A stretch of 64,000 nucleotides of DNA, from NCBI GenBank assembly GCA_014238425.1, contig JABABD010000020.1, forward strand, positions 62,001 through 126,000, given 5' to 3'. The stretch is from Flavobacteriaceae bacterium (lineage in GTDB: Bacteria > Bacteroidota > Bacteroidia > Flavobacteriales > Flavobacteriaceae). Positions 3,001 to 25,776 of the stretch are shown here, in pieces; the first letter of the stretch is position 1, and each line of letters begins with the position of its first letter. The notes under the pieces are model-generated. The model was given only the letters and a program-made list of their open reading frames with translations, had not been told where the DNA came from and ran no database searches. The position numbers and the translations under genes were made by a program.

Positions 3001-4438
3001 CATTGGTTGAAAAATCATTACCAGTCTGAGATATTAGACTTCCTACGGTTACAACACCAGTTGTAGACAAATCATATTGGTTGTCATTTTCATCAAAAAC
3101 AAGAACCGTTACGTCTTCTTCATAATCGAAATCCGTAATTTTAAATGTTACATACTCTATATCTGTTGAAAATTGCGCATCTATTTGAAAATTGGTCACA
3201 GGAACACTAGATTCTCCTCTTACCTCAATTGCTACTCCTATATCGCCACCTGTAAATGTCATTGCAGTTCCAGCAGACAGGATTGGGGAATATGAAACGG
3301 TTGTTCCTTCTATATTATATGCCGTATTGGTCATATTATTTCCAATCCCGATGGTATTTTCAATATCTGTGGTCGAACAACCGTCAAGATAATTAGGAAT
3401 ACCATCATTGTCTGAATCCTCATCCACTATGTTCGCTGTTCCATCTGCATCATCATCATCAAGAACCGCTATGCTAACTGTAGCTGTAGTACATAATGAA
3501 TCTGAGTTACATACTTCATATATAAAGGAGTCTGTTCCAGTAAAATCAAGATTTGGTGTATATGAAAAAGTACCATTTGCACTAATAGTAACCGTTCCAT
3601 TTGATGGTAAGGTTATTGGAGTTGTGTTATATGTTAATACTAATCCTCGGGGATCTGAATCGTTATTAGAAACGTCTTCGTTTAAAATTGTATTCTCGAC
3701 CATGCTGTAATCATCGTCATTCGCTAATGGTTTGCGGAAATTTTCTGAAATGGTTAAAGCTTCACTACAAATTACTGTAGAAGCCGTCAACCCATCAGGC
3801 CAAATTGATGGACAAGTTGCTTCTGTGGCGTTGGCGCCACAGTATGTTGCGCTTCCAATGTTTGCCGTGGCATCATCAGGACCTATATTGATCCAATTTA
3901 TATCACTGTCATTTGATACATTGATTCCTGCATTAAGATCTAGTTCATCTCGCGTTATAAGATAAGCTTCTCCAACATTATCCCCATCATATTCAGCGAT
4001 GTTATTTGTGCTCAAACTAAAACGATCACAAACTTCAAAGACCGTATTATCTTCCATATAAATATCACCGCCTGACCAAAATACTAATTGCGCAGAAATA
4101 TGGCTATAATCCTTCATCCTGAATTCTCCTGCGGATACATTAAATGAAGTAGTTGATGTTATCGATGCGGTTTCACATAATTGAATTGTTCCTTGAGTTG
4201 CAAAAACTTGCGAAGATAATTCAACACCCTCTTCAATAATTAAGGTGCCTCCTAATTCTATAGTAAGAAAAAGAACCGAGACATCTGAAGAAGCACAATA
4301 CGTTTCTCCTGAACCTATAGTCAAAGAAGTTTGTGAAGTTAAGGTCGTTCCCGAACAATTACATTGACTATAGCCTAAAAAGGATATTAAAATGAATGTT
4401 AGCGTCAATAATTTTCTTACAATGCTAGGTGATCTCAT
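1..4438 (-). CDS. Giant secreted surface protein with TSP3-like repeats and LamG-like domain (3' end outside window)
   Basis: The frame is open for about 1479 codons from the ATG at 4438 and runs off the left edge. Residues 1-24 form a signal peptide ending in a YSQ-like site. A tandem-Ig/cadherin-like segment (VENTILNEDVSNND, about residues 245-325) follows. Several Asp-rich blocks of the type DSDNDGIPDI then resemble calcium-binding thrombospondin type 3 repeats (about residues 325-350, 535-580, 755-830). A concanavalin/LamG-like domain starting IDFDGVDDYV lies at about residues 890-1060. The last visible part has the LIGNPYPSALDA motif, typical of Bacteroidota surface proteins. By family knowledge such proteins usually end in a type IX secretion C-terminal domain, but that end is not in the window. 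The role is probably adhesion or matrix; the ligand is unknown. Confidence 0.85.
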   Translation of the reverse strand, partial: MRSPSIVRKLLTLTFILISFLGYSQCNCSGTTLTSQTSLTIGSGETYCASSDVSVLFLTIELGGTLIIEEGVELSSQVFATQGTIQLCETASITSTTSFNVSAGEFRMKDYSHISAQLVFWSGGDIYMEDNTVFEVCDRFSLSTNNIAEYDGDNVGEAYLITRDELDLNAGINVSNDSDINWINIGPDDATANIGSATYCGANATEATCPSIWPDGLTASTVICSEALTISENFRKPLANDDDYSMVENTILNEDVSNNDSDPRGLVLTYNTTPITLPSNGTVTISANGTFSYTPNLDFTGTDSFIYEVCNSDSLCTTATVSIAVLDDDDADGTANIVDEDSDNDGIPNYLDGCSTTDIENTIGIGNNMTNTAYNIEGTTVSYSPILSAGTAMTFTGGDIGVAIEVRGESSVPVTNFQIDAQFSTDIEYVTFKITDFDYEEDVTVLVFDENDNQYDLSTTGVVTVGSLISQTGNDFSTNEAGINIDGNNSADDIYGAVSFYFPGKVSRIDISGTLKERASIRISEFNYCLNDYDSDGVKDFLDLDSDNDGIPDIVEAGGTDSDHNGIADDITDYNKNGIPDIYDTNCIGTTSGSGNADSVAASNLVTSQTNVLGIQDFNDAIIAPGGFITVDLTDEVIPNSLIIIKHRRASGGFVSVPFTIEQSMNPLSGFTNSNSEATSETTSHFSASYKILTNNARYIRITNIDTDQDLGIDYLSYDFGSLTDCNGTIGNSIPLLNSDTDSNSNWKDFDSDNDGIPDNIEAQPTNAYISPSGAVNLANGILNVYSSILTQQDTDGDGTPDYLDDDSDNDGIPDIQENGMANSLTNADQDSDGLDDSFEGSNLNDFDANDEIDNPTNLSILPDTDGDLAFGGDLDYRDGLNTFIPSATIDFDGVDDYVVGTPVLSGFNQTNTDGVTIMGWIKSDSDVSDVATKFVFGERESVELFITDEDIRAYIHIVSSTGTNQTHDVYRTTTGIERGIWRHVTITVDFANNQASLLLDGRWVFRTNLQDAVRFQSADTAANEDFRLGNDPSLNSTRYFKGAIDEVRVFNKLIDEEELKEIIFQEIENSSGSVKGSVINNTLSSVDWSDLQMYYPMTNIVDGSIKDESNNNNAARLFNITTLQSQTAPMPFTTKQDGNWNEKNTWTHGDVWFIPGDEVIEAATFGNDEVVHWGIYHIKNNITLTTAMSEANKPRAIQGIEALGLIIDEKDISNNDISFTIGNGTEDLQVNVSKFIELNGTLDLTGDSQLIQGISSDLITSTNGKILRRQEGNADAFWYNYWSSPVGTVGATALGNNNSSSNNANNTPFNVAMLQDGTGAAIEFTSAFDEVGKVSNKWLYSFQNGLTYYDWVALTPASAIAPGVGYTQKGTGNTGTEQEYIFNGKPNNGTILVQADDVDSDSGNESQQDVTLTTTLIGNPYPSALDAEQFIRDNIDFDNGGANPIIQGTILLWEQWAGNSHWLAEYEGGYGYINLTGT

Positions 4439-4751
4439 AAGTAGGTATTATTTTGGGGCTATAATAAACTAGTTATTTTTAATCCATAAATCAAGGCAAG
4501 TCTTATTGCAAAAATTTATAGGATAAAATATAGTGAGGGGAGAATGGATTGAATGCAATAGTAGTTTCAATCTTCTGATAATATCCAATTTTATCGTTAT
4601 ATGGTAGATAAACCCTATAAACAATTAATATTGGAGAAATTTCTTACATTTAAATATAACAAATCTTACATTTTTTCACGAAACCTCCTTGATATTACAC
4701 CTTATATAAGGTTAAACCTTATTGCTGAAGATTATAGAATAACTGAATTTA
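4439..4751. other. Intergenic region upstream of the giant surface protein
   Basis: This is 313 bases of AT-rich sequence between the end of pbpC and the start of the surface-protein gene, both read leftward. A 14-base perfect palindrome (ACCTTATATAAGGT, 4699-4712) lies about 40 bases beyond the pbpC stop. It has no T-run, so it is not a clear terminator. I found no clean TAnnTTTG promoter and no ORF worth calling. The promoter of the surface-protein gene must lie here, but I cannot place it. Confidence 0.5.
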
Positions 4752-13934: not shown

Positions 13935-15503
13935 ATGAACATCTCGAAATTCAAAAAAACAACCTTACTGTTATTTTTAGCCGCAGCTGTAAGTACTGTT
14001 TCTGCACAAATAACCACACAACAAGTGGATTCATTAGTTAATTATGCCATGAGTAAATTTAACGTAGCGGGTTGTGCTGTAGCCGTTGTAAAAGATGGGA
14101 AAATTATTCATAATAAAGGGTATGGTGTGACATCTATAGAAACCAAAAATCCTGTTAATGAGCACACCCAATTCGCTATTGCTTCTAATAGTAAAGCCTT
14201 TACAACTGCGGCCCTAGCTATTTTAGTTGAAGAAGGAAAGATTAACTGGTTAGATAAGGTGAAGGATCATATTCCAGAGTTTAGGATGTACAATCAATAC
14301 GTAGAGGATAATTTCAATATCCAGGATCTCGTGACACATCGTAGCGGTTTAGGCTTAGGTATGGGAGATCTGATGTTCTTTCCAGATGGTACCGATTTTA
14401 CGATGGACGATCTTCTAGTCAGTTTTCAATATTTTAAACCAGAATCTGCTTTCAGGACCAAATGGGATTATGATAACTTGCTGTATTTGGTCGCTGGAGA
14501 ATTAATTGCTCGTAAAAGTGGAATGACTTGGGAACAATTTATTGCGACTCGCATCTTAGAGCCCTTAAACATGGATAACACCTATCCTTCTTTAGCAGAC
14601 ATTAAAGACGCTAGCAATTTATCCGCATCGCATTCTACCGAAACAGGCACGATTAGAGTGATTCCAACATTCAAGGAAATGATGAATGGCGCAGCAGGAG
14701 GCATTTTCTCTAATGTCGATGACCTTGCGCAGTGGATGCTATTGCAATTGAACAAAGGCAAATATGGTGACGATTTAAAGAAACAATTGTTTTCTGAAAA
14801 GAACCATCGAGAGATGTGGAAAATACATACGGTTATGGGCGTTGATCCTAACCCGCGTTATAACACTCATTTTTCGGGTTATGGTTTAGGTTGGTTTATG
14901 TCTGATGTTAAGGGTAATATGAAAGTTGAACATACTGGTGGTTTGCCAGGTATGTTATCAAATACTGTTATGATTCCAGATCTTAATTTGGGTGTTGTGA
15001 TCTTGACTAATACAAGTAATGATGGAGGAGGATTGTTTTCGTCCGTAGCAAATGCTATCGTTGATGATTATCTAGGTTTAGACAATTTTGATTGGATCGA
15101 TAAGTACGCTGCATATTTTAAACAAAGAACGTCAGGAAATGACGAATTTACGAAAGGCGTTTGGGAAGAGGTTACCAATGCAGATGCATCAAATATTAAA
15201 CTAAATAAGTATGTCGGAATGTATAAAGACAATTGGTTTGGCAAGGCAGAAATCTTCAAGAAGAAAAGGAAACTATGGATCAGGTTTTTACGCTCTCCAA
15301 AACTAAACGGAGAACTTCAATTTTATAAGGACAATACCTTTGCGGTAAAATGGGAATATCAAGATATGAATGCAGATGCTTTTGTAAGCTTTAAACCTGA
15401 TGACAACGGCAAAGCGCAAAGCATGACCTTAAAAGGGATTTCACCGAATATCGATTTTAGTTTCGATTTTCAGGATTTGGATTTACAGCGAATTAAGGAC
15501 TAA
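13935..15503 (+). CDS. Serine hydrolase of the beta-lactamase (class C / penicillin-binding) fold
   Basis: This is an exported 522-residue protein. Residues 1-24 are a signal peptide ending VSAQ. The beta-lactamase fold follows at about 30-380, with S84-N-S-K87 as the nucleophile motif, a WDYDN segment (Y179, N181) as the second motif, and H333-T-G-G as the KTG equivalent. Residues about 410-520 resemble the DUF3471 beta-barrel often fused to these enzymes. The family includes esterases, D-aminopeptidases and beta-lactamase-like proteins. Substrate cannot be read from the sequence, and resistance should not be inferred. It stands alone, with a small lipoprotein gene 45 bases downstream. Confidence 0.88.
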   Translation: MNISKFKKTTLLLFLAAAVSTVSAQITTQQVDSLVNYAMSKFNVAGCAVAVVKDGKIIHNKGYGVTSIETKNPVNEHTQFAIASNSKAFTTAALAILVEEGKINWLDKVKDHIPEFRMYNQYVEDNFNIQDLVTHRSGLGLGMGDLMFFPDGTDFTMDDLLVSFQYFKPESAFRTKWDYDNLLYLVAGELIARKSGMTWEQFIATRILEPLNMDNTYPSLADIKDASNLSASHSTETGTIRVIPTFKEMMNGAAGGIFSNVDDLAQWMLLQLNKGKYGDDLKKQLFSEKNHREMWKIHTVMGVDPNPRYNTHFSGYGLGWFMSDVKGNMKVEHTGGLPGMLSNTVMIPDLNLGVVILTNTSNDGGGLFSSVANAIVDDYLGLDNFDWIDKYAAYFKQRTSGNDEFTKGVWEEVTNADASNIKLNKYVGMYKDNWFGKAEIFKKKRKLWIRFLRSPKLNGELQFYKDNTFAVKWEYQDMNADAFVSFKPDDNGKAQSMTLKGISPNIDFSFDFQDLDLQRIKD

Positions 15504-15548
15504 GCACAAGTCGTTTTATACCAGCTCTTGAAATGTGATAAGATTTAT

Positions 15549-16100
15549 ATGAAAAAACTACTGCTAATACTCTCTGTAATACTGATGTTGTCAAATTGTT
15601 CTCAGGACGATTCTTCTTTAATAGAGACTGTCGCGGAATATAATCCAGCCCAACATCCAGGAATACAATTAGCTTTTAGGACTCACGTCAAGAATTTTTA
15701 CGATGAAGCCAATTTAAGAGATGAAAACCCAGATAATATAATTGGACAAACAATTGAATCTCTTAAAATGATTTTTGATGTGGATCTCGATGAACAATAC
15801 TGTGGTTATGCTTATGGATTTGACAATCCATTTAGTGATCCGTTTGTAGTCATATCAACACGTCCTGAATGTTGGGGCGAAAGAAATGAGGCGGAAAGAG
15901 AACTTTTAGTTTTTCACGAGTTAGGGCATGCCATTCTAACGAGGTATCACGATAATTCTCAGCTGCCAAGCGGTCATAAGAAAAGTATAATGGTGTCTGA
16001 CAATACGCTCTTTACAATTTACGCTGACAATGAAACGGACAAACGCAATTATTATTTAGATGAGTTATTTGACCCAAATACTCCTGAACCTGAGTGGTAA
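15549..16100 (+). CDS. Small lipoprotein with HExxH putative metallopeptidase motif
   Basis: This is a 183-residue protein with a lipoprotein signal ending L-S-N-C17. A zinc-binding H123-E-L-G-H127 helix lies within LLVFHELGHAIL, and a conserved pair of Cys-containing loops (around residues 85 and 108) precedes it. This looks like a minimal zincin-type peptidase, but the third metal ligand cannot be assigned with certainty. I chose the ATG at 15549 rather than the one at 15528 because only the later start gives a normal lipoprotein signal. It probably sits on the periplasmic face of a membrane. It may be co-transcribed with the upstream serine hydrolase. Confidence 0.7.
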   Translation: MKKLLLILSVILMLSNCSQDDSSLIETVAEYNPAQHPGIQLAFRTHVKNFYDEANLRDENPDNIIGQTIESLKMIFDVDLDEQYCGYAYGFDNPFSDPFVVISTRPECWGERNEAERELLVFHELGHAILTRYHDNSQLPSGHKKSIMVSDNTLFTIYADNETDKRNYYLDELFDPNTPEPEW

Positions 16101-16125
16101 GATTCAAAGAATTTAATCATCCTTA

Positions 16126-16869
16126 CTATTTTAATTCAGTTTCAATTTGACCAATAACGCCTTTTATGGCTATATTTCTTTGAGTTAATTCTTCAATAAG
16201 CACGCTAGAGTTTTGCAGCATGACAAACAAATTTGAAATAACGGTTTCATTAGCATGTATTCGAATGTTATGCTCTGACTTAAGGTCTAGATCTAATCCT
16301 ATGAAATCATTGATAAGTTCATTCGTTAACAATTTAGGTATAATATCGTCTGTAAACTCTCTTGTTATTTGTTTCGTGCGTTCTTGGGTTCCGTGCTCAT
16401 AACTTAGATCGCTGTAATAATTGGACAGCTTCGTTCGCAATTCTTTGTTTCTTATTAACCCTATTTTTTCAGAAGTCACCATGTTATCAAACCCAGTTCT
16501 TACAGGTGTAAAGATTTTGAAATCTGTTAGAACTGCTATTTTAGGTCTAAGTTCATCAAAGTAGGGTTTGCCTTGTTTACCTTTCTCAAACAATGCTAAT
16601 GTACTAACTATAGAATCTGTTTTCTTTGTATTATACGCTATAGTTTTGTTGATATTGAGTGTGTCCTTTATCAAATTTCCTTTTATTTCAGATAGATAAT
16701 CTTGCTCAAGGTTTTTCTTTTGGCGGTTCTCATTCCAATTATTGATACTTAATGCGATAAGTATCCCAATAACCACAAGAATGATTTCGCCAATCGCGTA
16801 TTTTAGGTACTTCCCTGTTTTATTTTGTTCCATAAGGTCTTTTCTTATATGTCGGAAGAATTTTATCAT
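16126..16869 (-). CDS. DUF6090 family membrane-anchored protein, paralogue 1 (last in array)
   Basis: This 247-residue protein has a constant N-terminal module: MIKFFRHIRKDL, then KTGKYLKYAIGEI, then one membrane helix (about 27-43), then SINNWNENR. The C-terminal 200 residues are probably extracytoplasmic, largely helical, and differ strongly from the sister genes. They keep a loosely shared pattern around 120-150 (GFDNMVTSEKIGLIRN then LR..L..YY). The family is widespread in Flavobacteriia and has no known function as far as I am aware. The start lies one base after the stop of the upstream paralogue, so it is the last gene of a translationally linked array. Confidence 0.85.
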   Translation of the reverse strand: MIKFFRHIRKDLMEQNKTGKYLKYAIGEIILVVIGILIALSINNWNENRQKKNLEQDYLSEIKGNLIKDTLNINKTIAYNTKKTDSIVSTLALFEKGKQGKPYFDELRPKIAVLTDFKIFTPVRTGFDNMVTSEKIGLIRNKELRTKLSNYYSDLSYEHGTQERTKQITREFTDDIIPKLLTNELINDFIGLDLDLKSEHNIRIHANETVISNLFVMLQNSSVLIEELTQRNIAIKGVIGQIETELK

Positions 16870-16870
16870 G

Positions 16871-17581
16871 TTAATCTACTTTCGATAATCGTGTGATTTC
16901 CGTTATGTACTCTTCTAAAGGTTCGTTTTTAATGGTGCTTACGATATTGTTGAGATAAAGAATCTGACGTTCGGTCAAGTTCCTAAATTTTGAAGTAGTG
17001 ATGAGTTTGAAGTTTTTGACATTTCCTAAATTCGCTAAATCGCCATTATCAATTAGATAAGGTTCTATTTTAGTCGTCCATAATTCGCCTGCAAGTTCTT
17101 CATCTTCGATATAATCCTGAAGAACATCTTTCCATGAAATGATGTAGTTCCTCAAAGAGTCATTCTTGATGAGTTGGTACTCTCCGGAAGAGATTAGTGA
17201 CTCAATTACACCATTGGAAGGGTTATAAGACACGCCATTGAAAGCTTGGAAATAATATTTGGCTATACTGTCTTTCACCAATAAAAGATCCTTATGATTG
17301 ATGTACTCTTTGAATTTAAGAACGCTTCTTTGGGTCCGTATATGTGTAGCCTTGACCCTTTGGAACTGCTCTAAATTGTTCTTGAAATCCTTGTTGAGTT
17401 CTTTTAGGATACTAGTTTCCTTGATGCGGTCCTTACGATCTTCATTCCAATTATTGATACTTAAGGCGATAAGTATTCCAATAACCACAAGCACGATTTC
17501 GCCAATAGCATATTTTAGGTATTTACCTGTTTTGTTCTGTTCCATGAGGTTGAATCTTATTTTTCTGAAGAATTTAATCAT
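16871..17581 (-). CDS. DUF6090 family membrane-anchored protein, paralogue 2
   Basis: This is a 236-residue protein. Its first 50 residues (MIKFFRKIRFNL, KYLKYAIGEIVLVVIGILIA, SINNWNEDR) are nearly identical to those of paralogue 1, at DNA level as well. The remainder shows only scattered similarity, mainly the segment GVIESLISSGEYQLIKNDSL followed by LR.YI..WK. A single membrane helix (about 27-43) and a helical extracytoplasmic tail are predicted. It ends one base before the start of paralogue 1 and begins 15 bases after the stop of paralogue 3. The strong contrast between constant head and variable tail suggests duplication with divergence or gene conversion of the 5' end. Confidence 0.85.
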   Translation of the reverse strand: MIKFFRKIRFNLMEQNKTGKYLKYAIGEIVLVVIGILIALSINNWNEDRKDRIKETSILKELNKDFKNNLEQFQRVKATHIRTQRSVLKFKEYINHKDLLLVKDSIAKYYFQAFNGVSYNPSNGVIESLISSGEYQLIKNDSLRNYIISWKDVLQDYIEDEELAGELWTTKIEPYLIDNGDLANLGNVKNFKLITTSKFRNLTERQILYLNNIVSTIKNEPLEEYITEITRLSKVD

Positions 17582-17596
17582 TGGTTCAATTGTTGG

Positions 17597-18331
17597 CTAT
17601 TCCAAATTATATTCTGTTTTAATCTTATCAATCAAGACTTTTCCATCAGTTTTAAATTTTTTTAGCATGTTCTTATATTTTCCATATGATAATACGTATC
17701 TAAAAAAGTAATTTTTAAAAGCATCATCCTCAAAAATCATATTGATGAAAGTATCCCTATTCTTATTTACTACATAATCTACTCTAATTCCTTTCTCGAT
17801 TATATAATTAGTTAGCTGTCTAAAATTATCATCTAAATATTCTGCATCTACTTCAATTTCGAATAAAAACTCAGAATACAATAAAGTAAGAGCTCCTGTA
17901 AGTTCAGTATTTAGTTCGTAATCAAGCTCTATTTTAGATTCAAGTAACTGTACTCCTTTATCATTAATTTTAATGTCTGGGTATCCTGTTGTAGTGCGGA
18001 AGTATTTATTACAATAATCAAGATTTGTTAAAAGGGAATCGCGAACAACATTACCTTGAATAATATTTCGCATTAAAAGACGATTCTTATCCATTTTCCC
18101 AACTTCACTCTCAATTTCAAATGCGGTATTATTAAAGTCCTGCACAATTCGAGCATAAATATTTCGAATTTGTTTTTTCTCTTTTTGTTTTTCATTCCAA
18201 TTATTAATTGATAGCGCAATGAGAATCCCAATCACCACAAGGATAATCTCGCCAATAGCGTATTTTAGGTATTTCCCTGTTTGATTTTTTTTCATGAGGT
18301 TGTATCTAGTATGTCTAAAAAACTTAATCAT
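17597..18331 (-). CDS. DUF6090 family membrane-anchored protein, paralogue 3
   Basis: This 244-residue protein has the same head (MIKFFRHTRYNL, KYLKYAIGEIILVVIGILIA, SINNWNE) followed by a Lys-rich stretch (KQKEKKQ). Its C-terminal region (about 60-244) is rich in acidic and aromatic residues and barely resembles the other copies. Its ATG overlaps the stop of a 41-codon mini-ORF that begins with the same head codons (stop at 18326-18324). It is followed after 15 bases by paralogue 2. No function is known. Confidence 0.85.
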   Translation of the reverse strand: MIKFFRHTRYNLMKKNQTGKYLKYAIGEIILVVIGILIALSINNWNEKQKEKKQIRNIYARIVQDFNNTAFEIESEVGKMDKNRLLMRNIIQGNVVRDSLLTNLDYCNKYFRTTTGYPDIKINDKGVQLLESKIELDYELNTELTGALTLLYSEFLFEIEVDAEYLDDNFRQLTNYIIEKGIRVDYVVNKNRDTFINMIFEDDAFKNYFFRYVLSYGKYKNMLKKFKTDGKVLIDKIKTEYNLE

Positions 18332-18449
18332 AGTTTCTATTTAAATATAGAGGATGTCCGCAAGCGGCTATCTTCACCAAATGTCCACTGGACATCTGAT
18401 TTTGCCAAGACAAAATTCTGTTTCGATAATGTCGAAAGAATTTAATCAT
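18324..18449 (-). pseudogene. 41-codon mini-ORF beginning with the DUF6090 head (MIKFFRH)
   Basis: From the ATG at 18449 the frame reads MIKFFRHYRNRILSW and stops with TAA at 18326-18324, inside the first codons of paralogue 3. Only the first seven or eight codons match the DUF6090 family. The rest is repeat-like DNA with palindromes (ATGTCC..GGACAT). The membrane helix is absent. It is either a truncated relic or a short leader that couples translation to the next gene. Whether it is translated is unknown. Confidence 0.55.
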
Positions 18450-18623
18450 TTAATTACTTTTTGTGTCAGGTCGAGCGGAGTCGAGACCTACTTCACTTAA
18501 ATTATTTTCAGAATGCGTTTCATTTCTGCATTCAGCTAATAATTTTATTAAATCATAGTCTCCATTTGCTAATGCTAATTTCTTTTTACCGCTCCATTTT
18601 TTAATTTTCGTTAAGCTCTTTTT
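18450..18623 (-). pseudogene. Open fragment without a start, ending in repeat-encoded GLDSARPD
   Basis: A frame overlapping the 3' end of paralogue 4 stays open from about 18623 to the TAA at 18452-18450, directly abutting the next ATG. It has no ATG, GTG or TTG start. The readable part includes KKLALANGDYDLIKLLAE, which looks like real, helix-rich coding sequence, then ends in the palindromic repeat (GLDSARPDTKSN). I read it as the tail of a lost gene captured between DUF6090 copies; its family is not recognised. Confidence 0.4.
18465..18490. repeat. Dispersed palindromic repeat, copy A
   Basis: GTCAGGTCGAGCGGAGTCGAG plus ACCTA. The same 25-base unit recurs at 19422-19446 and 20324-20348, with inverted partial copies at 20358-20381 and 59391-59413. 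The reverse strand reads CTCGACTCCGCTCGA, an element I know as common in Flavobacteriaceae genomes. Confidence 0.8.
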
Positions 18624-19407
18624 CTATTCTTTTTTCTAGGTCTTCCAGCATATAAATAGCCGTTCTGTAACGCCCTACTTTAAACGAACGATACCTAAAT
18701 GCTTGCCGTAATAGCACCCTGAATTTAGTGCTCTTTTTCAAGGCTTCAAAATCATTGGGAACATAACCTAGGTACACATCAAATTCATCTCCCTCAAAAG
18801 AATTCCTGTAAGGAAACTTCAAATCTACATCATACATCTTGTATTCATATATTAAAGTTGAGTCTGTATTTGTTGTAAAATTTTCTTGATAAAAATCACC
18901 AAAAAACTCTTCAAGATCGGGATAGAATGGATTTTGCTTGCTTATTCTTGGCAATACGAATTCAAAAGCATTTTGTGTGTATATGCGAATGGTATCATTT
19001 TTCACGAGTCCCAAGCCTTCTTTTTTTAGTAGGTCATAGGATGAGGTTATAGGATACATATATTCATCTCTCAATAGCCAATGAAAATCGAAACACATAG
19101 TGTCATTGTAGGTTGCGTCTTGCTCTAGGTATTTGACCACTCTTAAATGGCTCTTGACTCCCATTTTAAGGACCTCATAATCTCCTTCCAAGTCATTTAG
19201 CATGGAGCGAATGTCTTTCTTTAAATGTTCTAGGGTTATTTTTTCCAATTTGTTTTTCAATCTGCCAGCATTCCAATTACTCACTTGCAGTGCCAGAAGG
19301 ATTCCAACCATTACTAGTAAAATTTCACCAATGGCATATTTTAGGTATTTGCCTGTTTTGTTTTCATTCATGAGGTTATAGCGTATTTGACGAAAGAACT
19401 TGATCAT
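18601..19407 (-). CDS. DUF6090 family membrane-anchored protein, paralogue 4
   Basis: This is the longest copy at 268 residues. The head is MIKFFRQIRYNL, KTGKYLKYAIGEILLVMVGI, LQVSNWNAGR, so the helix and its end differ slightly from paralogues 1-3 (QVSNWN instead of SINNWN). The tail carries SSYDLLKKEGLGLVKNDTIR, matching the weakly conserved pattern of the family, and is rich in aromatic residues. Its ATG overlaps the stop of a 49-codon mini-ORF by four bases (ATGA). Downstream, 150 bases of relic and repeat DNA separate it from the next mini-ORF. Function unknown. Confidence 0.85.
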   Translation of the reverse strand: MIKFFRQIRYNLMNENKTGKYLKYAIGEILLVMVGILLALQVSNWNAGRLKNKLEKITLEHLKKDIRSMLNDLEGDYEVLKMGVKSHLRVVKYLEQDATYNDTMCFDFHWLLRDEYMYPITSSYDLLKKEGLGLVKNDTIRIYTQNAFEFVLPRISKQNPFYPDLEEFFGDFYQENFTTNTDSTLIYEYKMYDVDLKFPYRNSFEGDEFDVYLGYVPNDFEALKKSTKFRVLLRQAFRYRSFKVGRYRTAIYMLEDLEKRIEKELNEN

Positions 19408-19553
19408 TTATCTAAAATTATGTCAGGTCGAGCGGAGTCGAGACCTATTTGAGACCTCTCGGCTTGCCTTGCAAGGTACATTCGTACAAAATATATTTTG
19501 CACTTTGCAATGCTCGAGGTGACAGCCATAATATGACGAAAGAATTTAATCAT
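19404..19553 (-). pseudogene. 49-codon mini-ORF with DUF6090 head and repeat-encoded tail
   Basis: The ATG at 19553 follows the stop of paralogue 5 by six bases. The frame reads MIKFFRHIMAVTSS, passes through a palindromic repeat pair with a 50-base insert, then ends GLDSARPDIILDK. Its stop (TGA, 19406-19404) overlaps the ATG of paralogue 4. Head codons and coupling overlaps are kept although the protein body is missing. It is closely similar to the mini-ORF at 20306-20410. Confidence 0.6.
19421..19523. repeat. Dispersed palindromic repeat, copy B, interrupted inverted pair
   Basis: TGTCAGGTCGAGCGGAGTCG at 19421-19440 is followed by AGACCTATTTGAGACCTCTCGG, then about 50 bases of different sequence (containing CCTTGCAAGG and GTACATTCGTAC short palindromes), then CTCGAGGTGACA. 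Compared with copy C it looks like the same inverted pair with an insertion in the loop. Confidence 0.7.
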
Positions 19554-19559
19554 GAGTTT

Positions 19560-20309
19560 TTAGTCTAAATCTGTTTGTAATCTTGGTAAGATCTTTTTGA
19601 TGTTTATTTGGTTAGTCTCTAATTCTGCTATAGCATTTCTGTATAAGACGTCATAAGCAGCTAGTAAAACAGCAACTCTGGGTGTAAAATCTTTACCGTC
19701 GATATTGGCCCAAGTACTATTGTATAAATAACTATTGTTATAATTATCATCATATAATCGACCTATAATGTTATAGTGCTTTACAAAATCATCCAAATGA
19801 TTACGATACTGATCTAAGACTTTTTCATTAATGTCTTTATGATATTCCAATTCAGTGTAATAATCAGATAATGTTTGTTTAATCTCGTTCGGTAAAATAT
19901 CAAATGCTCCAGTGGATTTTAAGTTAGAAAACGTATTGGTGTTGTATGCTGGTGAGCTATACCATCTTACCGGGAATTCATTTTGCATGATTTTGATTAA
20001 GGTATCCAAGGTTGACGGAGTAGCATAAGATCGCTTTAATAATGTTTTATTAGTGCTGTGTCTTTGATACACTAATGGCATTGCTTCATAAATAAGCAGA
20101 CTATCTGAAACAAGATCATTATAAACAGATTGTAGGGCCGATTTTAGTTGAACATTCTCTTTTCTTTTTTCATTCCAATTATTAATCTGTAGCGCAATGA
20201 GAATACCAATAACAACGAGAATGATTTCACCAATAGCGTATTTAAAGTATTTGCCTGTTTTTCCTGTTTCCATGAGGCTGTATCTTATTTTACGAAAGAA
20301 CTTGATCAT
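19560..20309 (-). CDS. DUF6090 family membrane-anchored protein, paralogue 5 (first in array)
   Basis: This 249-residue protein has the head MIKFFRKIRYSL, KTGKYFKYAIGEIILVVIGI, LQINNWNEKR and one membrane helix (about 27-43). In the tail, NTFSNLKSTGAFDILPNEI followed by LSDYYTELEYH matches the common family pattern. Its ATG at 20309 overlaps by four bases (ATGA) the stop of the 34-codon mini-ORF upstream, which in turn overlaps the stop of the cyclase gene. A chain of stop-start overlaps therefore links an enzyme gene to this array. Function unknown; it probably sits in the inner membrane with the tail outside. Confidence 0.85.
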   Translation of the reverse strand: MIKFFRKIRYSLMETGKTGKYFKYAIGEIILVVIGILIALQINNWNEKRKENVQLKSALQSVYNDLVSDSLLIYEAMPLVYQRHSTNKTLLKRSYATPSTLDTLIKIMQNEFPVRWYSSPAYNTNTFSNLKSTGAFDILPNEIKQTLSDYYTELEYHKDINEKVLDQYRNHLDDFVKHYNIIGRLYDDNYNNSYLYNSTWANIDGKDFTPRVAVLLAAYDVLYRNAIAELETNQINIKKILPRLQTDLD

Positions 20310-20410
20310 TTATCTAAAATTATGTCAGGTCGAGCGGAGTCGAGACCTATTTGAGACCTCTCGACTCCGCTCGAGGTGACAGCTATAATATGGCGAAAGA
20401 ATTTAATCAT
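20306..20410 (-). pseudogene. 34-codon mini-ORF with DUF6090 head and palindromic-repeat body
   Basis: The ATG at 20410 overlaps the TGA of the cyclase gene (ATGA). The frame reads MIKFFRHIIAVTSSGVERSQ and ends GLDSARPDIILDK, with its TGA at 20308-20306 overlapping the ATG of paralogue 5. After seven head codons the whole body is an inverted pair of the palindromic repeat. This is the simplest of the three mini-ORFs and suggests that a full paralogue here was replaced by the repeat while both overlaps were kept. Confidence 0.6.
20322..20385. repeat. Dispersed palindromic repeat, copy C, complete inverted pair
   Basis: TGTCAGGTCGAGCGGAGTCG (20323-20342) and its inverted partner CTCGACTCCGCTCGAGGTGACA (20360-20381) can form a long hairpin with a loop including CTATTTGAGAC. 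It lies wholly inside the 34-codon mini-ORF. A hairpin of this strength between genes could affect mRNA stability or readthrough; that is inference. Confidence 0.8.
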
Positions 20411-21240
20411 AACTCTTCATTTACTAAAGCTATTATCCTTAATGGCGCACCGCTACCTTCCTTTATTTTCATGGGTAGTGCAACAATTTCAAAATCCTTT
20501 GAAGGCAGTTTATCGAGATTAGCTACATTCTCAAATGCCGGAATGTTTTCCGTAAGTAGTATGACATGGCTCCTAAAATATTCCGATTGCCCGTAATCTA
20601 TACTAGGTGTGTCTATTCCTATAGCATTAATTATCCTGTTTTTAACCAACCACGATGCTGCTTCAGGAGAAAGTCCAGGAAAATGCAATAACTTAATAAC
20701 ATCGGAACCGCGCTGGTCTGTACCTAAATACTTCAATTTATCTGGATAGTATGTTGAATGTCCTGTTTCTAATAGTACAATGCTTCCATCAGGAATTTGA
20801 CCATTCACCTTCTCCCATTCCAAAAAATCTTGAATGCTTATACGATAATCTGGGTTTTGCAATGCTTTTTTAGAAACATCTATTTTTATAGCACTGCCCA
20901 CTAATTTTTCTAAGGGAATCTGATCGACAGATTGCTTGCCTTTTGCAAAATGAATCGGGGCATCTATATGTGTACCGCCATGTTCGGCCGTTTCAAAATT
21001 GTTAGCTGCGTAAAAAAATCCCTTGTCAGTATCTCCTTTTGCCACTACTTCTAGCTGGAACTCTTTAGCTGTAACCCAATACACCGTTTCATCAGAAAAT
21101 GTATGTGTTAAGTCTATAATATTGGTTTTGGTGAAAGATTCCTTTTTAGATGTAGCGTCCGTTTTTGTCTCTTTACCAGCATTAGAGCATGATAGCACTA
21201 AACAGATTACTATTAAGGCATTAAATAATTTAAGTTTCAT
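20407..21240 (-). CDS. Cyclase/kynurenine-formamidase family (PF04199) lipoprotein
   Basis: This is a 277-residue metal-dependent hydrolase of the cyclase family. The signature H87-G-G-T-H91-I-D93-A-P-I-H97 supplies the metal ligands known for kynurenine formamidase and related enzymes. Residues 1-18 form a lipoprotein signal ending V-L-S-C18, so it is exported, which is unusual for kynurenine formamidases (normally cytoplasmic). The substrate is therefore uncertain: a periplasmic cyclic amide, lactone or formylated compound is possible. It starts 19 bases after the M28 peptidase gene and its TGA overlaps a DUF6090 mini-ORF start, so it heads the DUF6090 array. Confidence 0.85.
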   Translation of the reverse strand: MKLKLFNALIVICLVLSCSNAGKETKTDATSKKESFTKTNIIDLTHTFSDETVYWVTAKEFQLEVVAKGDTDKGFFYAANNFETAEHGGTHIDAPIHFAKGKQSVDQIPLEKLVGSAIKIDVSKKALQNPDYRISIQDFLEWEKVNGQIPDGSIVLLETGHSTYYPDKLKYLGTDQRGSDVIKLLHFPGLSPEAASWLVKNRIINAIGIDTPSIDYGQSEYFRSHVILLTENIPAFENVANLDKLPSKDFEIVALPMKIKEGSGAPLRIIALVNEEL

Positions 21241-21259
21241 AATAATTTAAACGTTTAAT

Positions 21260-22762
21260 CTAGTCCTTGATCGGAGTGTTCTTGTACAATGCCTTTGATG
21301 CTTCCTCATATTTATCGCCAGACACCCATGTAGGTGTGGCCACGTCATTACCAATATTACGGCCTGATAAGACATAAGCCCTAAAAAATTTCAACAAGTA
21401 ATCATAATCCAAGGTGTTTGCCTCATCTCCAGGTCGATGATAGTACTTGGTGACATCGCCATTAAAAGCCGTGAAACCCATCGAAAAGGTAGGTGCTGGA
21501 ATCCCTTTTTTGGCAAAATTCACATTATCACTACGATCAAAAAGACCTTGTTCTTTTGCGGGATCTTCAATAGCTGTAAGCCCAAACACAGATGCCGCAG
21601 ACTCTATGTTCTTTTGCGCTGTGGTTCTTGTCAGACCTACAATAGTGGCTAAAGAGGTGTCGTTGTAACCTCCATTATCGCTATTAAAACAATATACCAT
21701 CTGCTTTAACGGCAGTACAGGATTTTCAACATAAAACTCACTACCTAATAATCCCTTTTCTTCTCCTGTAAACAAAATGAACAATGCTGATCGCTTTGTT
21801 GGGTATTTTGCTAAATTCTCGGCCATACTCAATACTGTCGTTGTCCCAACAGCATTATCTCTAGCACCATTATAAATGGTATCGCCAGTTTCATCAGGTG
21901 TGCCAATACCAACATGATCGTAATGTGCAGAATATATAATGTATTCATCCTTTAAATTAGGGTCCGTTCCTTCGACCACGCCAATAATGTTTTGAGATAT
22001 AACTGGTTCTTCTTGCTTCTCATTAACGGACATTTTTATGGGTATTGTACTTGCCCCTTGAAGTGTATTGGCCATTGCATGTTCTTTATCAAGAACCCAA
22101 ATATGTGGTGCTTGTTTGTCGTAATCCTTATTGTCTTTACCATCCTCATCCTTGGCAACCATAAGTTGCGGTTCATTAAAGTTATGTTGAATAAATCCCC
22201 ATATATTATCATCGGCATTCAGTAATTCAACAATGGCTAGTACACCATTATCTTTTGCCAATTTTTGTTTTTTGGATCTGAGCCTAAAAGCCGCTCTAGC
22301 GTCCTTAGCTTCAGGGCCACCTGCTTTTATGACTACAACTTTTCCTTGCATGTTTTTTCCAGAATAATCTTCTTCTAAACCATAGTTAAGATAAATGGCA
22401 TCACCTGTGTTCTCAATTGGTGATGGAAAAATAAAGGCATAATTATCAATCTTGTTATTATTGATTTCTATAGATACCTTACTAGGTGGAGAGACTCTTT
22501 TGAGTTCTACATCTTGGTAATATGTTCCTGTTTTAGGGTTTGGTTTCACGCCATAGCTTCTAAATCTGTTAGCCAAATAAGAGGCCGCAATTTTAAGTTC
22601 TGGTGATCCAGTAGCTCTTCCTTTTAATACGTCGTCTGCCAAGAAATAAATATGACCTTCGATATCAGATTTACTAACGGTCTCAATTACTTTGTCCTTT
22701 TCGCTTTGTGCAGATAGTGTAAAAGCACCAAAAAGGGCCATTAATAATAAGAATTGTTTCAT
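21260..22762 (-). CDS. M28 family zinc aminopeptidase, exported
   Basis: This is a 500-residue exported metallopeptidase. The signal peptide is residues 1-19 (LSAQ). A protease-associated-like insert lies at about 120-250. The M28 metal ligands are visible as SAH280YDHVG, D302 in GARDNAVG, the E334-E335 pair in FTGEEKG, D362 in NSDNGG, and a late His in KYYHRPGDE. Such enzymes remove N-terminal residues from peptides in the periplasm or outside the cell. It is upstream of, and probably co-transcribed with, the cyclase lipoprotein and the DUF6090 array. Confidence 0.9.
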   Translation of the reverse strand: MKQFLLLMALFGAFTLSAQSEKDKVIETVSKSDIEGHIYFLADDVLKGRATGSPELKIAASYLANRFRSYGVKPNPKTGTYYQDVELKRVSPPSKVSIEINNNKIDNYAFIFPSPIENTGDAIYLNYGLEEDYSGKNMQGKVVVIKAGGPEAKDARAAFRLRSKKQKLAKDNGVLAIVELLNADDNIWGFIQHNFNEPQLMVAKDEDGKDNKDYDKQAPHIWVLDKEHAMANTLQGASTIPIKMSVNEKQEEPVISQNIIGVVEGTDPNLKDEYIIYSAHYDHVGIGTPDETGDTIYNGARDNAVGTTTVLSMAENLAKYPTKRSALFILFTGEEKGLLGSEFYVENPVLPLKQMVYCFNSDNGGYNDTSLATIVGLTRTTAQKNIESAASVFGLTAIEDPAKEQGLFDRSDNVNFAKKGIPAPTFSMGFTAFNGDVTKYYHRPGDEANTLDYDYLLKFFRAYVLSGRNIGNDVATPTWVSGDKYEEASKALYKNTPIKD

Positions 22763-22800
22763 GATCTATTGTTGTTTATATAATTGTAGTTATTTCTTTT

Positions 22801-22992
22801 TTATCCCATTTCGCCATCACCGTCAATGTCCATTTGCACATGCTTCTCTAAGGCCACTAATGTCTTTCTGAGAAGGTCTTTCGTTTTAGCAAGCTCATCT
22901 TCCAGTTGCCCCACTCGATCTTCCAGACTATTCGCTTGCTCTTGTTGTTTTTCTAATTCATCTTGCTGTAATAAATCCCAAAATATGCCCAT
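22801..22992 (-). CDS. Small coiled-coil protein (63 aa)
   Basis: This 63-residue protein starts MGIFWDLLQQDELEKQQEQ and continues with a heptad-like coiled coil (NSLEDRVGQLEDELAKTKDL, about residues 20-50), ending in an acidic DIDGDGEMG tail that could bind a metal ion. It is short but has the composition of a real gene and sits 38 bases upstream of the M28 gene in the same direction. A decayed DUF6090 head ends five bases before its ATG. The family is not recognised; similar short coiled-coil proteins occur in flavobacteria. Confidence 0.65.
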   Translation of the reverse strand: MGIFWDLLQQDELEKQQEQANSLEDRVGQLEDELAKTKDLLRKTLVALEKHVQMDIDGDGEMG

Positions 22993-22997
22993 AGTTT

Positions 22998-23138
22998 TTA
23001 AATGATTTTATCTGTGTTCAACCTAATAGTAATAACCTTGATTTCAAATATGATTTCGCCAATGATATATAGAGGGTATTCCGAAAACGTGTTTTCGGAG
23101 AATGGTCGCTGAAGAATGCGACGAAAGAACTTGATCAT
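22998..23138 (-). pseudogene. Decayed DUF6090 N-terminal fragment (46 codons)
   Basis: From the ATG at 23138 the frame reads MIKFFRRILQ, then a region containing the palindrome CCGAAAACGTGTTTTCGG (23081-23098), then YIIGEIIFEIKVI, which aligns with YAIGEIILVVIGI of the intact paralogues. The helix is degraded by charged substitutions and the frame ends at 22998. This is a real relic of a sixth family member at the upstream end of the cluster, so the array was once larger or is mobile as a unit. Confidence 0.7.
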
Positions 23139-23277
23139 TTGCTTGCAGTTAGAAGCAAGTTAGGTTGATGATTAGTTGAGGTCAATTACAACTATCTGTA
23201 TCTAAATCGTTTTAAATGTTACAAATAGTTGCGATTTTGAAAGTTACACAAATTAACATTAGCGACATCATATGGCA

Positions 23278-23307
23278 CAAAAAACCACTCAAGCTTATTT
23301 GAGCGGT
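23278..23307 (-). terminator. Rho-independent terminator after the S9 peptidase gene
   Basis: On the minus strand ACCGCTCAA and TTGAGTGGT pair across a six-base loop and are followed by TTTTTT. It lies 19 bases beyond the stop of the S9 peptidase gene at 23326. Confidence 0.8.
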
Positions 23308-23325
23308 CTTATCTATTTTTTTTAA

Positions 23326-25776
23326 TTAATCTTTCAATTCCTTTTGATTGTCTATTGGAGATTCTCCTTTGTTTTTTACATATTTTTCCAGCCATTGATC
23401 CTGCTCCCATAATAAATGTAGTACAGATTCCTTAGCGCGATAACCATGACTTTCTTTTGGCAGCATAACCAATCTCGCCGTGGCTCCTAAACCTTTCAAC
23501 GCATTAAAATAACGCTCGCTTTGTAGTGGGTAGGTCCCAGAATTGTTATCTGCTACACCATGCACCAAAAGTAATGGAGTTTTCATTTTATCGGCATGCA
23601 TAAATGGCGACATGTTATAATACACGTCTGGTGCTTCCCAATAACTACGTTCTTCACTTTGGAAACCGAAAGGCGTGAGCGTTCTGTTATACGCGCCACT
23701 TCGTGCAATACCTGCAGCAAATAAATTAGAATGCGATAGTAAATTAGCCGTCATAAAAGCACCATAAGAGTGGCCTCCAACGCCAACACGATTTCTATCA
23801 ATGTAACCCATAGCATCTACGGCATCAATGGCCGCTTTACCATTAGCCACTAATTGTGTTCTGAAGTTGTCATTAGGCTGTTCATCACCTTCCCCCACAA
23901 TTGGGAAGGACGCATCATCTAATACCACATAACCTCTCGTAACCCAATAAATCATAGAACCGTAATATGGATATGTAAATTCATTGGCGTTCTTAGTAGA
24001 TTGAGACGCACTGCTTTTGTCTTTAAACTCTCTTGGATACGCCCATAAAACCATCGGCATTTTTTCTTTTTTGATCTTATCATATCCTGCCGGTAAATAC
24101 AAAGTTCCTGAGAGTTCTAATCCATCATCACGTTTATAAGTAATTACCTCTTTATGTACATCCTGTATACTCGCAAACGGGTTTTTAAATTCTGTAATTT
24201 GAGTGAGCTTATCTTTTTTGATGTTTCGTATATAATAATTAGGATACTCCGTTGGCGATTCTATACGAACTAAAATCTCACCTTTTTTTATATCTATAGC
24301 TTGCTGTAAGTTTTCTAGTTTATCGGTATATGCAGATTCGTATAAGCGCTTGGTTTTACCCGTTTTTATATTCATGGCATCTATAAAAGGAAACTGTCCT
24401 TTCTTGCTATGGCCATCTCCCATAAGGTAGAGCTCATTGTTTTCAATGGTTAAAACATTACGTCCATAAGTATTTTCTTGCGTTACAAAATCACCTGGGT
24501 CGCTATAGACATCTTGGTAATTACGGTCTGTAATAATCTTTCCTTCATTTTTACTATTGGATGGGTTGAATAAATAAATCTTGGTATTTCGTGTATTCCA
24601 CCAATAATCATACGCCAAAGCGGTTTTTGAATCTCCCCATTGTATGCCACTAAAACGACCAATGGTTTTTAAAACTTCTTTTGGGGTTGACGTAAAAGGC
24701 GCTTCTTGCATATACACCTGGTCGCGATATGCCACATCTACTTCGGGGTCTCCACTATCTAAGACTTCAGCCCAAACCAATGTTGCTGAAACATCATCAC
24801 GCCATTGCATACGTCTTTTACCTTTCCGAGCTGACATGAATCCTTTTGGTAATTCTTCTATAAGCGGCACTTCATTAACGGTCTTTACTTCGGTTCCATT
24901 AGTATCATAAATCACGGATGTTTGCGGAAAACGACGATAAGGCACGATATAAGAAAATGGTTTTTCAATAGTTGTCACCATCCAATATTTTCCATCTGGC
25001 GACGCTGAAATACCACTATACATGGCTGCTTCTTTCCACGGTGTGATTTTTCCGTCTAAATTTAATTGTATTAAACTGGCAGTCGCCAATTGTTCAAAAT
25101 TGAACACATCGTTTGGATTCTGAAGCAAATCTTGATACGTGCGGTTTTGAGCTTTGGAACCATCACTTGTTGAAATTGTAGGGCCTGTAGGTACAGCTTC
25201 TGCTGCATTAATGAGTTCTTTTCTACTATCAGGAATAACCTTTACTAATAGACTAGAACCATCTTTAAACCATCGCAACGGATTTCCCATATTGGCGTTC
25301 AACGGTGGTGTAGATAATTTTGAAACCGACGCCGAAGCAATATCGAGTATCCATACCTCTACGCCATTTTCTACCGTATTGGTCACGGCCATTTTAGATT
25401 CGTCAGGTGACCAACTAAAATTGCTCAATTTAGCATTATCAGGCAAGCCCTTTATTTGTTGCGCTTCTTTTTCTGATATGCCCTTTATCTTCACATTATT
25501 AAAGTAAGTTGTGCGGCTACCAATATTTGTTTTCGGGTTAATTCGTAATCCGCCTAAGCGCAACTCCTTTTCAGACAATGTTGCAATATCTTTATAGCTA
25601 TCGCGATACAAAAGAATCATTTTGTCGCCATCAGAATTCATTACCACACTTGGAGCTCTTGGAACATCAACAAGATCCAGGATTTCTTTTGGTGGTTTTT
25701 GGTATTTAAGATTGATTTGCGCAAAACTGCTAGAAATAAATAGCAATGCGACTAGCGTGAACAGAAGTTTTTTCAT
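23326..25776 (-). CDS. S9 family prolyl-oligopeptidase-type serine peptidase
   Basis: This 816-residue exported peptidase has a signal peptide at 1-19 (SSSFAQ). Residues about 60-530 form a beta-propeller of the WD40-like or dipeptidyl-peptidase type. The C-terminal alpha/beta hydrolase has the nucleophile S670 in GGHSYGAF, the acid in VHGVADNN and the base in PKESHGY. By family these enzymes cleave short peptides, often glutamyl or prolyl peptides, in the periplasm. It has its own terminator and a 70-base gap to the isoaspartyl peptidase gene upstream; both read leftward and could share a promoter. Confidence 0.9.
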   Translation of the reverse strand: MKKLLFTLVALLFISSSFAQINLKYQKPPKEILDLVDVPRAPSVVMNSDGDKMILLYRDSYKDIATLSEKELRLGGLRINPKTNIGSRTTYFNNVKIKGISEKEAQQIKGLPDNAKLSNFSWSPDESKMAVTNTVENGVEVWILDIASASVSKLSTPPLNANMGNPLRWFKDGSSLLVKVIPDSRKELINAAEAVPTGPTISTSDGSKAQNRTYQDLLQNPNDVFNFEQLATASLIQLNLDGKITPWKEAAMYSGISASPDGKYWMVTTIEKPFSYIVPYRRFPQTSVIYDTNGTEVKTVNEVPLIEELPKGFMSARKGKRRMQWRDDVSATLVWAEVLDSGDPEVDVAYRDQVYMQEAPFTSTPKEVLKTIGRFSGIQWGDSKTALAYDYWWNTRNTKIYLFNPSNSKNEGKIITDRNYQDVYSDPGDFVTQENTYGRNVLTIENNELYLMGDGHSKKGQFPFIDAMNIKTGKTKRLYESAYTDKLENLQQAIDIKKGEILVRIESPTEYPNYYIRNIKKDKLTQITEFKNPFASIQDVHKEVITYKRDDGLELSGTLYLPAGYDKIKKEKMPMVLWAYPREFKDKSSASQSTKNANEFTYPYYGSMIYWVTRGYVVLDDASFPIVGEGDEQPNDNFRTQLVANGKAAIDAVDAMGYIDRNRVGVGGHSYGAFMTANLLSHSNLFAAGIARSGAYNRTLTPFGFQSEERSYWEAPDVYYNMSPFMHADKMKTPLLLVHGVADNNSGTYPLQSERYFNALKGLGATARLVMLPKESHGYRAKESVLHLLWEQDQWLEKYVKNKGESPIDNQKELKD

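Follow-up and report, generated by a model that had tools for sequence, protein, structure and literature searches.

A run of five minus-strand genes (g1 to g5, 16126-20309) in the window, by which we mean the whole 64,000-nt stretch of DNA analyzed here, raises the question of how proteins with one common N-terminal head come to carry divergent tails: by an old duplication followed by drift, or by recombination that joins tails to different heads. All five exceed the curated cut-off of 23.5 bits for PF19578 (DUF6090), the Pfam model beginning at residue 28 and the alignments of g3 and g4 hardly passing the head. The initial annotation had described five tandem genes with a common head, separated by 1-15 bases or by mini-ORFs, and this description holds: g1 and g2 lie 1 nt apart, g2 and g3 lie 15 nt apart, and mini-ORFs occupy the remaining gaps. 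The features of the region are as follows.

16104..16120, minus strand: R4, a 17-nt remnant of a head, 5 nt past the end of g1, with two mismatches to the head motif
16126..16869, minus strand: g1, DUF6090 gene, 247 aa, PF19578 40.4 bits, its ATG 1 nt past the g2 stop
16871..17581, minus strand: g2, DUF6090 gene, 236 aa, PF19578 50.4 bits, AlphaFold model m429d66776b2a
17597..18331, minus strand: g3, DUF6090 gene, 244 aa, PF19578 30.4 bits, AlphaFold model mc7b22d91ad4c
18324..18449, minus strand: R3, a solitary head as a 41-aa mini-ORF, its stop TAA within the ATGATTAA start of g3
18601..19407, minus strand: g4, DUF6090 gene, 268 aa, PF19578 24.4 bits
19390..19461, minus strand: 72-nt tract found unchanged at 20292-20363; 54 nt of it lie ahead of g4 and 18 nt within it
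19404..19553, minus strand: R2, a solitary head plus REP-like palindrome as a 49-aa mini-ORF, its stop TGA within the ATGA start of g4
19560..20309, minus strand: g5, DUF6090 gene, 249 aa, PF19578 30.9 bits
20292..20363, minus strand: 72-nt tract (before and into g5), identical to 19390-19461
20306..20410, minus strand: R1, a solitary head plus REP-like palindrome as a 34-aa mini-ORF, its stop TGA within the ATGA start of g5
20407..21240, minus strand: cyclase gene (PF04199), upstream of the array in a presumed operon, its stop codon (TGA) within head R1
21260..22762, minus strand: M28 peptidase gene, a syntenic marker of this address
22801..22992, minus strand: gene for a 63-aa coiled-coil protein with a DIDGDGE loop, a recurrent DUF6090 neighbor
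22998..23138, minus strand: R5, a decayed 46-aa head that immediately precedes the small coiled-coil gene

Transcription on the minus strand would pass R5, the 63-aa coiled-coil gene, the M28 peptidase, the cyclase, R1, g5, R2, g4, R3, g3, g2, g1, and R4 in that order. Within 15500-23400, no terminator-like site was found on this strand from the M28 peptidase to g1, which is consistent with a single long transcript. The 3.75-Mb genome has 11 exact copies of the head motif ATGATHAARTTYTTYMG, of which nine lie at the array; with up to two mismatches allowed, the motif is matched 10 times in the window against 2.3 expected.

Plotting DNA identity along the genes bore out the claim that the heads are similar at the DNA level while the tails have diverged. 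Mean pairwise identity among g1-g5 was 0.75-0.80 over codons 1-40, 0.52 over codons 41-60, and 0.32-0.50 beyond (~37% past codon 50), so that identity is high until about codon 45 and has collapsed by codon 55. The five tails have 11-24% of residues in common, and BLAST among them returned a single weak match, between g1 and g5 (E 4e-4). Where two heads encode the same residue, codons agreed at 0.48 across genomes, against an expected 0.45, and at 0.56 between close array neighbors, against an expected 0.47, an excess that declines with distance within the array. As the codons of identical residues match little above expectation, the DNA similarity of the heads mostly reflects constraint on the protein, and we rejected recent gene conversion as its sole cause because synonymous sites in the heads are nearly saturated.

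The initial annotation had suggested looking for gene-conversion tracts, and the window offers two candidates. The 72-nt tract at g4 and g5 is identical between the two, and past it the genes agree at only 71% across codons 7-46; the heads of g1 and g2 reach a codon identity of 0.72 (0.41 expected) over unrelated tails. The palindrome within the 72-nt tract could have spread on its own; the spacer adjoining it is absent beside the other REP copies inspected. Since most head pairs in the window are near synonymous saturation, the window itself argues only faintly for recent exchange.

Exchange was far clearer in our close-species comparison set, the array-bearing regions of three species of Hanstruepera and two of Winogradskyella. 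These yielded 29 cross-species tail pairs at ≥70%, nearly always with differing upstream neighbors, and the homologous block was mostly one gene with unrelated flanks; any two Hanstruepera species had only 7-8 of 30-34 sampled tails in common. Nine of the ten strongest breakpoints fell in codons 16-43 and one at codon 121, although several breakpoint pairs have a gene in common and the cases are not all independent. In 15 pairs with tails ≥85% alike (434 genes), heads matched at 0.78 over codons 1-8 and 0.55 over codons 9-16, compared with 0.80 and 0.52 for random pairs, and the match rose to 0.90 at codons 45-52 (random 0.58). Tails are unlinked from codons 1-16 of their own heads. For example, L061_3236 and L090_7268 of Hanstruepera ponticola and Hanstruepera neustonica have tail DNA identities of 0.97-0.98 with 0.62 over head codons 1-16. 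The converse, near-identical heads over unrelated tails, was seen in a minority of pairs (L090_4298/5058, head codon identity 0.91, tails 25% identical in amino acids).

Using rpoB dS as a clock for species divergence, we found tail dS values below those of the species: 0.09 against 0.69 for H. neustonica and H. ponticola, and 0.34 against 0.99 for H. ponticola and Winogradskyella vincentii, indicating that some tails have moved between species and genera. Heads of genes with low tail dS were saturated (dS >1). Tail dN/dS was 0.06-0.29 (median 0.14), on which ground positive selection was rejected; there was no sign of a residue-level arms race. The tails are old conserved modules under purifying selection that are gained, lost, and transferred, and recombination within the head is real, yet moves old tails rather than creating new ones. 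The earlier proposal of rapid tail diversification through 5′ recombination thus survives in its second half: the identity step, the unlinked codons 1-16, and the breakpoints in codons 16-43 speak for recombination, and the median dN/dS speaks against rapid diversification.

The array in the window is one of a large, undescribed family of membrane proteins with a constant head and exchangeable tails. A scan of named genomes found 79 loci with DUF6090 arrays of up to 20 genes, several loci per genome and 0-48 copies per genome, and 310 of 322 tails fit one profile. The tails of g1, g3, g4, and g5 each have their best relative at a separate locus in another genus (L081, L109, L069, and L056, respectively), and the tail of g2 has its best relative at L061; the closest are at 60% identity for g3 (Winogradskyella ouciana L109_5259), 40% for g4 (Eudoraea L069), and 47% for g5 (L056_8001). 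Plasmids, phages, and viral contigs yielded no DUF6090 relatives. Non-family neighbors of the arrays were co-directional in 91 of 105 cases upstream and 87 of 105 downstream, a few of which may be family ORFs with another start.

At two shared addresses, arrays of different genera carry unrelated tails. L072 and L082 have the same M28 peptidase (72-73% identical) and, counting the coiled-coil gene with it, 72-75% identity beside their DUF6090 arrays, whose tails gave nothing beyond a weak match to those of the window. The other address is a junction between RidA and aldehyde dehydrogenase genes in a kynurenine-type operon, where the genome of the window (L002) has one DUF6090 gene, L085 has five, and L103 has three, with no mutual similarity among their tails. 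The operon reads FAD monooxygenase, RidA, the DUF6090 genes, and aldehyde dehydrogenase (L002 203-3359, L085 3589-11061, L103 6033-11784). The initial annotation had held that the same copy number and order in distant relatives would point to a fixed old duplication; instead, congeners vary in how many copies they have, in gene order, and in which tails are present, and so do the arrays at the shared addresses. The 63-aa coiled-coil protein, which ends in a calcium-loop-like DxDGDG, is single-copy, occurs in 6 of 60 genera of the bacterial family, and nearly always adjoins a DUF6090 gene (L060, L082, L084, L094, L141, L146, L148, L150, and L161-L164); it is possibly a constant partner of these proteins.

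Five solitary heads were counted in the window (16104, 18433, 19537, 20394, and 23122). The decayed upstream anchor noticed earlier (R5) is indeed present, but it is not the sole relic; the corresponding position of the related locus L082 is occupied by a complete DUF6090 gene (3742-4479). R1 and R2 have the same layout, with MIKFFRHI followed by a REP-like palindrome, a short end, and a stop supplied by the ATGA of the next gene, and the stops of all three mini-ORFs fall within the following head. R1, R2, and R3 are best read as internally deleted genes. The idea that a 49-aa fragment before R3 is the remnant of a GIY-YIG nuclease was dropped as it had no Pfam match. The REP-like palindrome TCTCGACTCCGCTCGA is found in the window at 18471, 19428, 20330, 20359, and 59391 and has 41 copies in the genome at ≤2 mismatches. 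Three copies (one in the array at L026, others at L034 and L050) are preceded by a similar coding-like fragment ending in CRNETHS or CRNVSHS, which has no Pfam match and may derive from a mobile gene. Of 445 heads, 31 (from L056, L060, L061, L062, L074, L078, L094, L103, and L124) contain in-frame insertions 3-21 codons long, many of them palindromic (e.g., CCTGCC..GGCAGG) and mostly just ahead of the membrane helix; in one genome, the same insertion is common to several heads with differing tails.

Could these palindromes account for the whole pattern? Mobile REP-like elements might have jumped into heads, cut genes short, and scattered copies, leaving relics and similar heads as by-products, and R1-R3, which contain or adjoin palindromes, as well as the palindromic in-frame insertions, would fit. 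Most discordant pairs, however, have ungapped heads without an insertion, some recombinant pairs have no palindrome in either head, and breakpoints are scattered across codons 16-43, making this account barely credible. A fixed old duplication, in which purifying selection for membrane targeting or a common partner preserved the head and the tails drifted without exchange, agrees with the near-saturation of synonymous sites in heads overall, with the single profile that fits nearly all tails, and with purifying selection on the tails. Against it stand the disagreeing head and tail histories in relatives, the range in copy number, and the unrelated tails at the same address; for the family as a whole it is refuted by head dS >1 beside tail dS 0.09 in one gene, and we consider it very unlikely. 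Head-tail reassortment through recombination in about the first 50 codons is, in our judgment, the highly probable explanation. Homologous recombination or gene conversion between conserved heads would join tails to different heads, and the spread of breakpoints makes homologous recombination likelier than a site-specific enzyme.

Such reassortment would be helped by the start of the head. Among successive array genes in other genomes, an overlap of precisely 8 nt occurs in 49 of 273 pairs and one of precisely 4 nt in 35 (84 together). In the start ATGATTAA, frame 2 contains TGA and frame 3 contains TAA, which closes every reading frame but that of the head; this two-frame closure applies where the second codon of the head is ATT (144 of 323 heads), while an ATA or ATC there leaves frame 2 as the only one closed in the first bases. 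Most upstream frames entering a head would thus end at ATGATTAA, where translation could restart, and this stop/start would make junctions tolerant.

Next, we examined structure and topology. The AlphaFold model of g2 is all-helical (pLDDT 93.6), and that of g3 (pLDDT 90.6) has the same order of helices even though the two tails are 18% identical; on the question raised earlier of whether the tails share one fold, the models thus give one all-helical layout. A PDB search by sequence gave nothing significant, and searches by fold with the AlphaFold models gave no match reaching E 0.001 (best E 0.08); structural matches to chemoreceptor ligand domains at E ~0.4-0.9 were non-significant. Cysteine makes up 0.21% of tail residues, and the charge is +5.9 before and +0.4 after the membrane helix, which points to a tail outside the cytoplasm, and we infer a cytoplasmic N-terminus and a helical, periplasmic tail. 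Longer members end in a DUF3471-like domain or weakly match SusF/SusE-like sequences; these domains are associated with exported proteins. Long same-head proteins of 337-392 aa with extra C-terminal sequence were seen at L090:14589, L099:4453, L099:10682, and L118:267, two of them DUF3471-like.

As to function, Pfam gives none for DUF6090, and our literature search found no paper on it and nothing on its arrays or on head-tail exchange, matching the earlier remark that no function was described. The suggestion of an envelope sensor or interaction set fares well as to the envelope, given the low cysteine content and charge bias; a sensing role and an interaction or immunity role seem about equally likely. 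The proteins may be envelope sensors or adaptors, for instance for nutrients or co-transcribed secreted hydrolases, with reassortment just as real and no immunity-like role. Arrays do lie among genes for peptidases, amidohydrolases, and kynurenine-type enzymes that run in the same direction, no toxins were seen among the listed neighbors, and there is the non-significant resemblance to chemoreceptor domains. The roughly 27 residues ahead of the membrane helix leave no cytoplasmic signaling domain, however, and the tail does not track the enzyme, since the same enzyme operon carries unrelated tails in different genera. We regard a sensor role as possible, though rather unlikely.

Our best guess, held just as tentatively, is that the arrays could form a polyimmunity-like repertoire of recognition proteins at the envelope, in which each tail would bind its own extracytoplasmic target, with toxins or other attackers as the likeliest targets. 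Homogeneous polyimmunity loci are tandem, same-strand paralogues of one type, seemingly equivalent functionally, whose number and type vary between close relatives, usually at a single locus (PMC3482391). DUF6090 arrays are likewise tandem, same-strand, seemingly equivalent functionally, and variable between close relatives; repertoire logic, gain and loss, and transfer all fit. Neighbors and family membership do not. DUF6090 arrays also occupy many loci per genome and encode a constant membrane anchor common to all members. Among the listed neighbors (the top 25 families per set, 172 flanking or interspersed proteins), no toxin genes or known immunity families were present; array flanks were not enriched for defense islands; and hits to PADLOC models were all marginal, the best (E 8e-4) covering part of a single protein. 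RidA-type proteins were discounted as defense genes, their PADLOC match coming through a shared enzyme domain.

Other known systems resemble the family in part. Polymorphic toxins of the CdiA/Rhs type also have a constant N-terminal part and a C-terminal module exchanged by recombination (PMC3482391), but DUF6090 proteins are much smaller, lack a toxin domain, and combine one helical fold with a single-helix anchor. In hsdS target-recognition genes and pilin/Vls cassettes, conserved segments likewise serve as recombination points for variable ones; DUF6090 copies, in contrast, all look expressed in operons, with no evident split between silent cassettes and an expression site. Unlike integron-type cassette arrays, they have no fixed recombination point, and unlike chemoreceptor-type sensor domains, their models have no significant structural match.

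Modular exchange at a constant region is known for toxins and antigens, and we did not find it described for a family of small membrane proteins. An anonymous DUF thereby becomes a testable system, with predicted junctions, a predicted topology, and a natural experiment in the same tail on different heads. More doubtfully still, the family may be a constant/variable recognition system of Flavobacteriia, in which helical tails circulating between genera would be joined to an anchor with a stop/start, giving each genome its own repertoire, with as many as about 48 proteins standing guard at the inner membrane. That a marine flavobacterial genome can devote as many as 48 genes to exchangeable tails suggests strong selection on what those tails meet.
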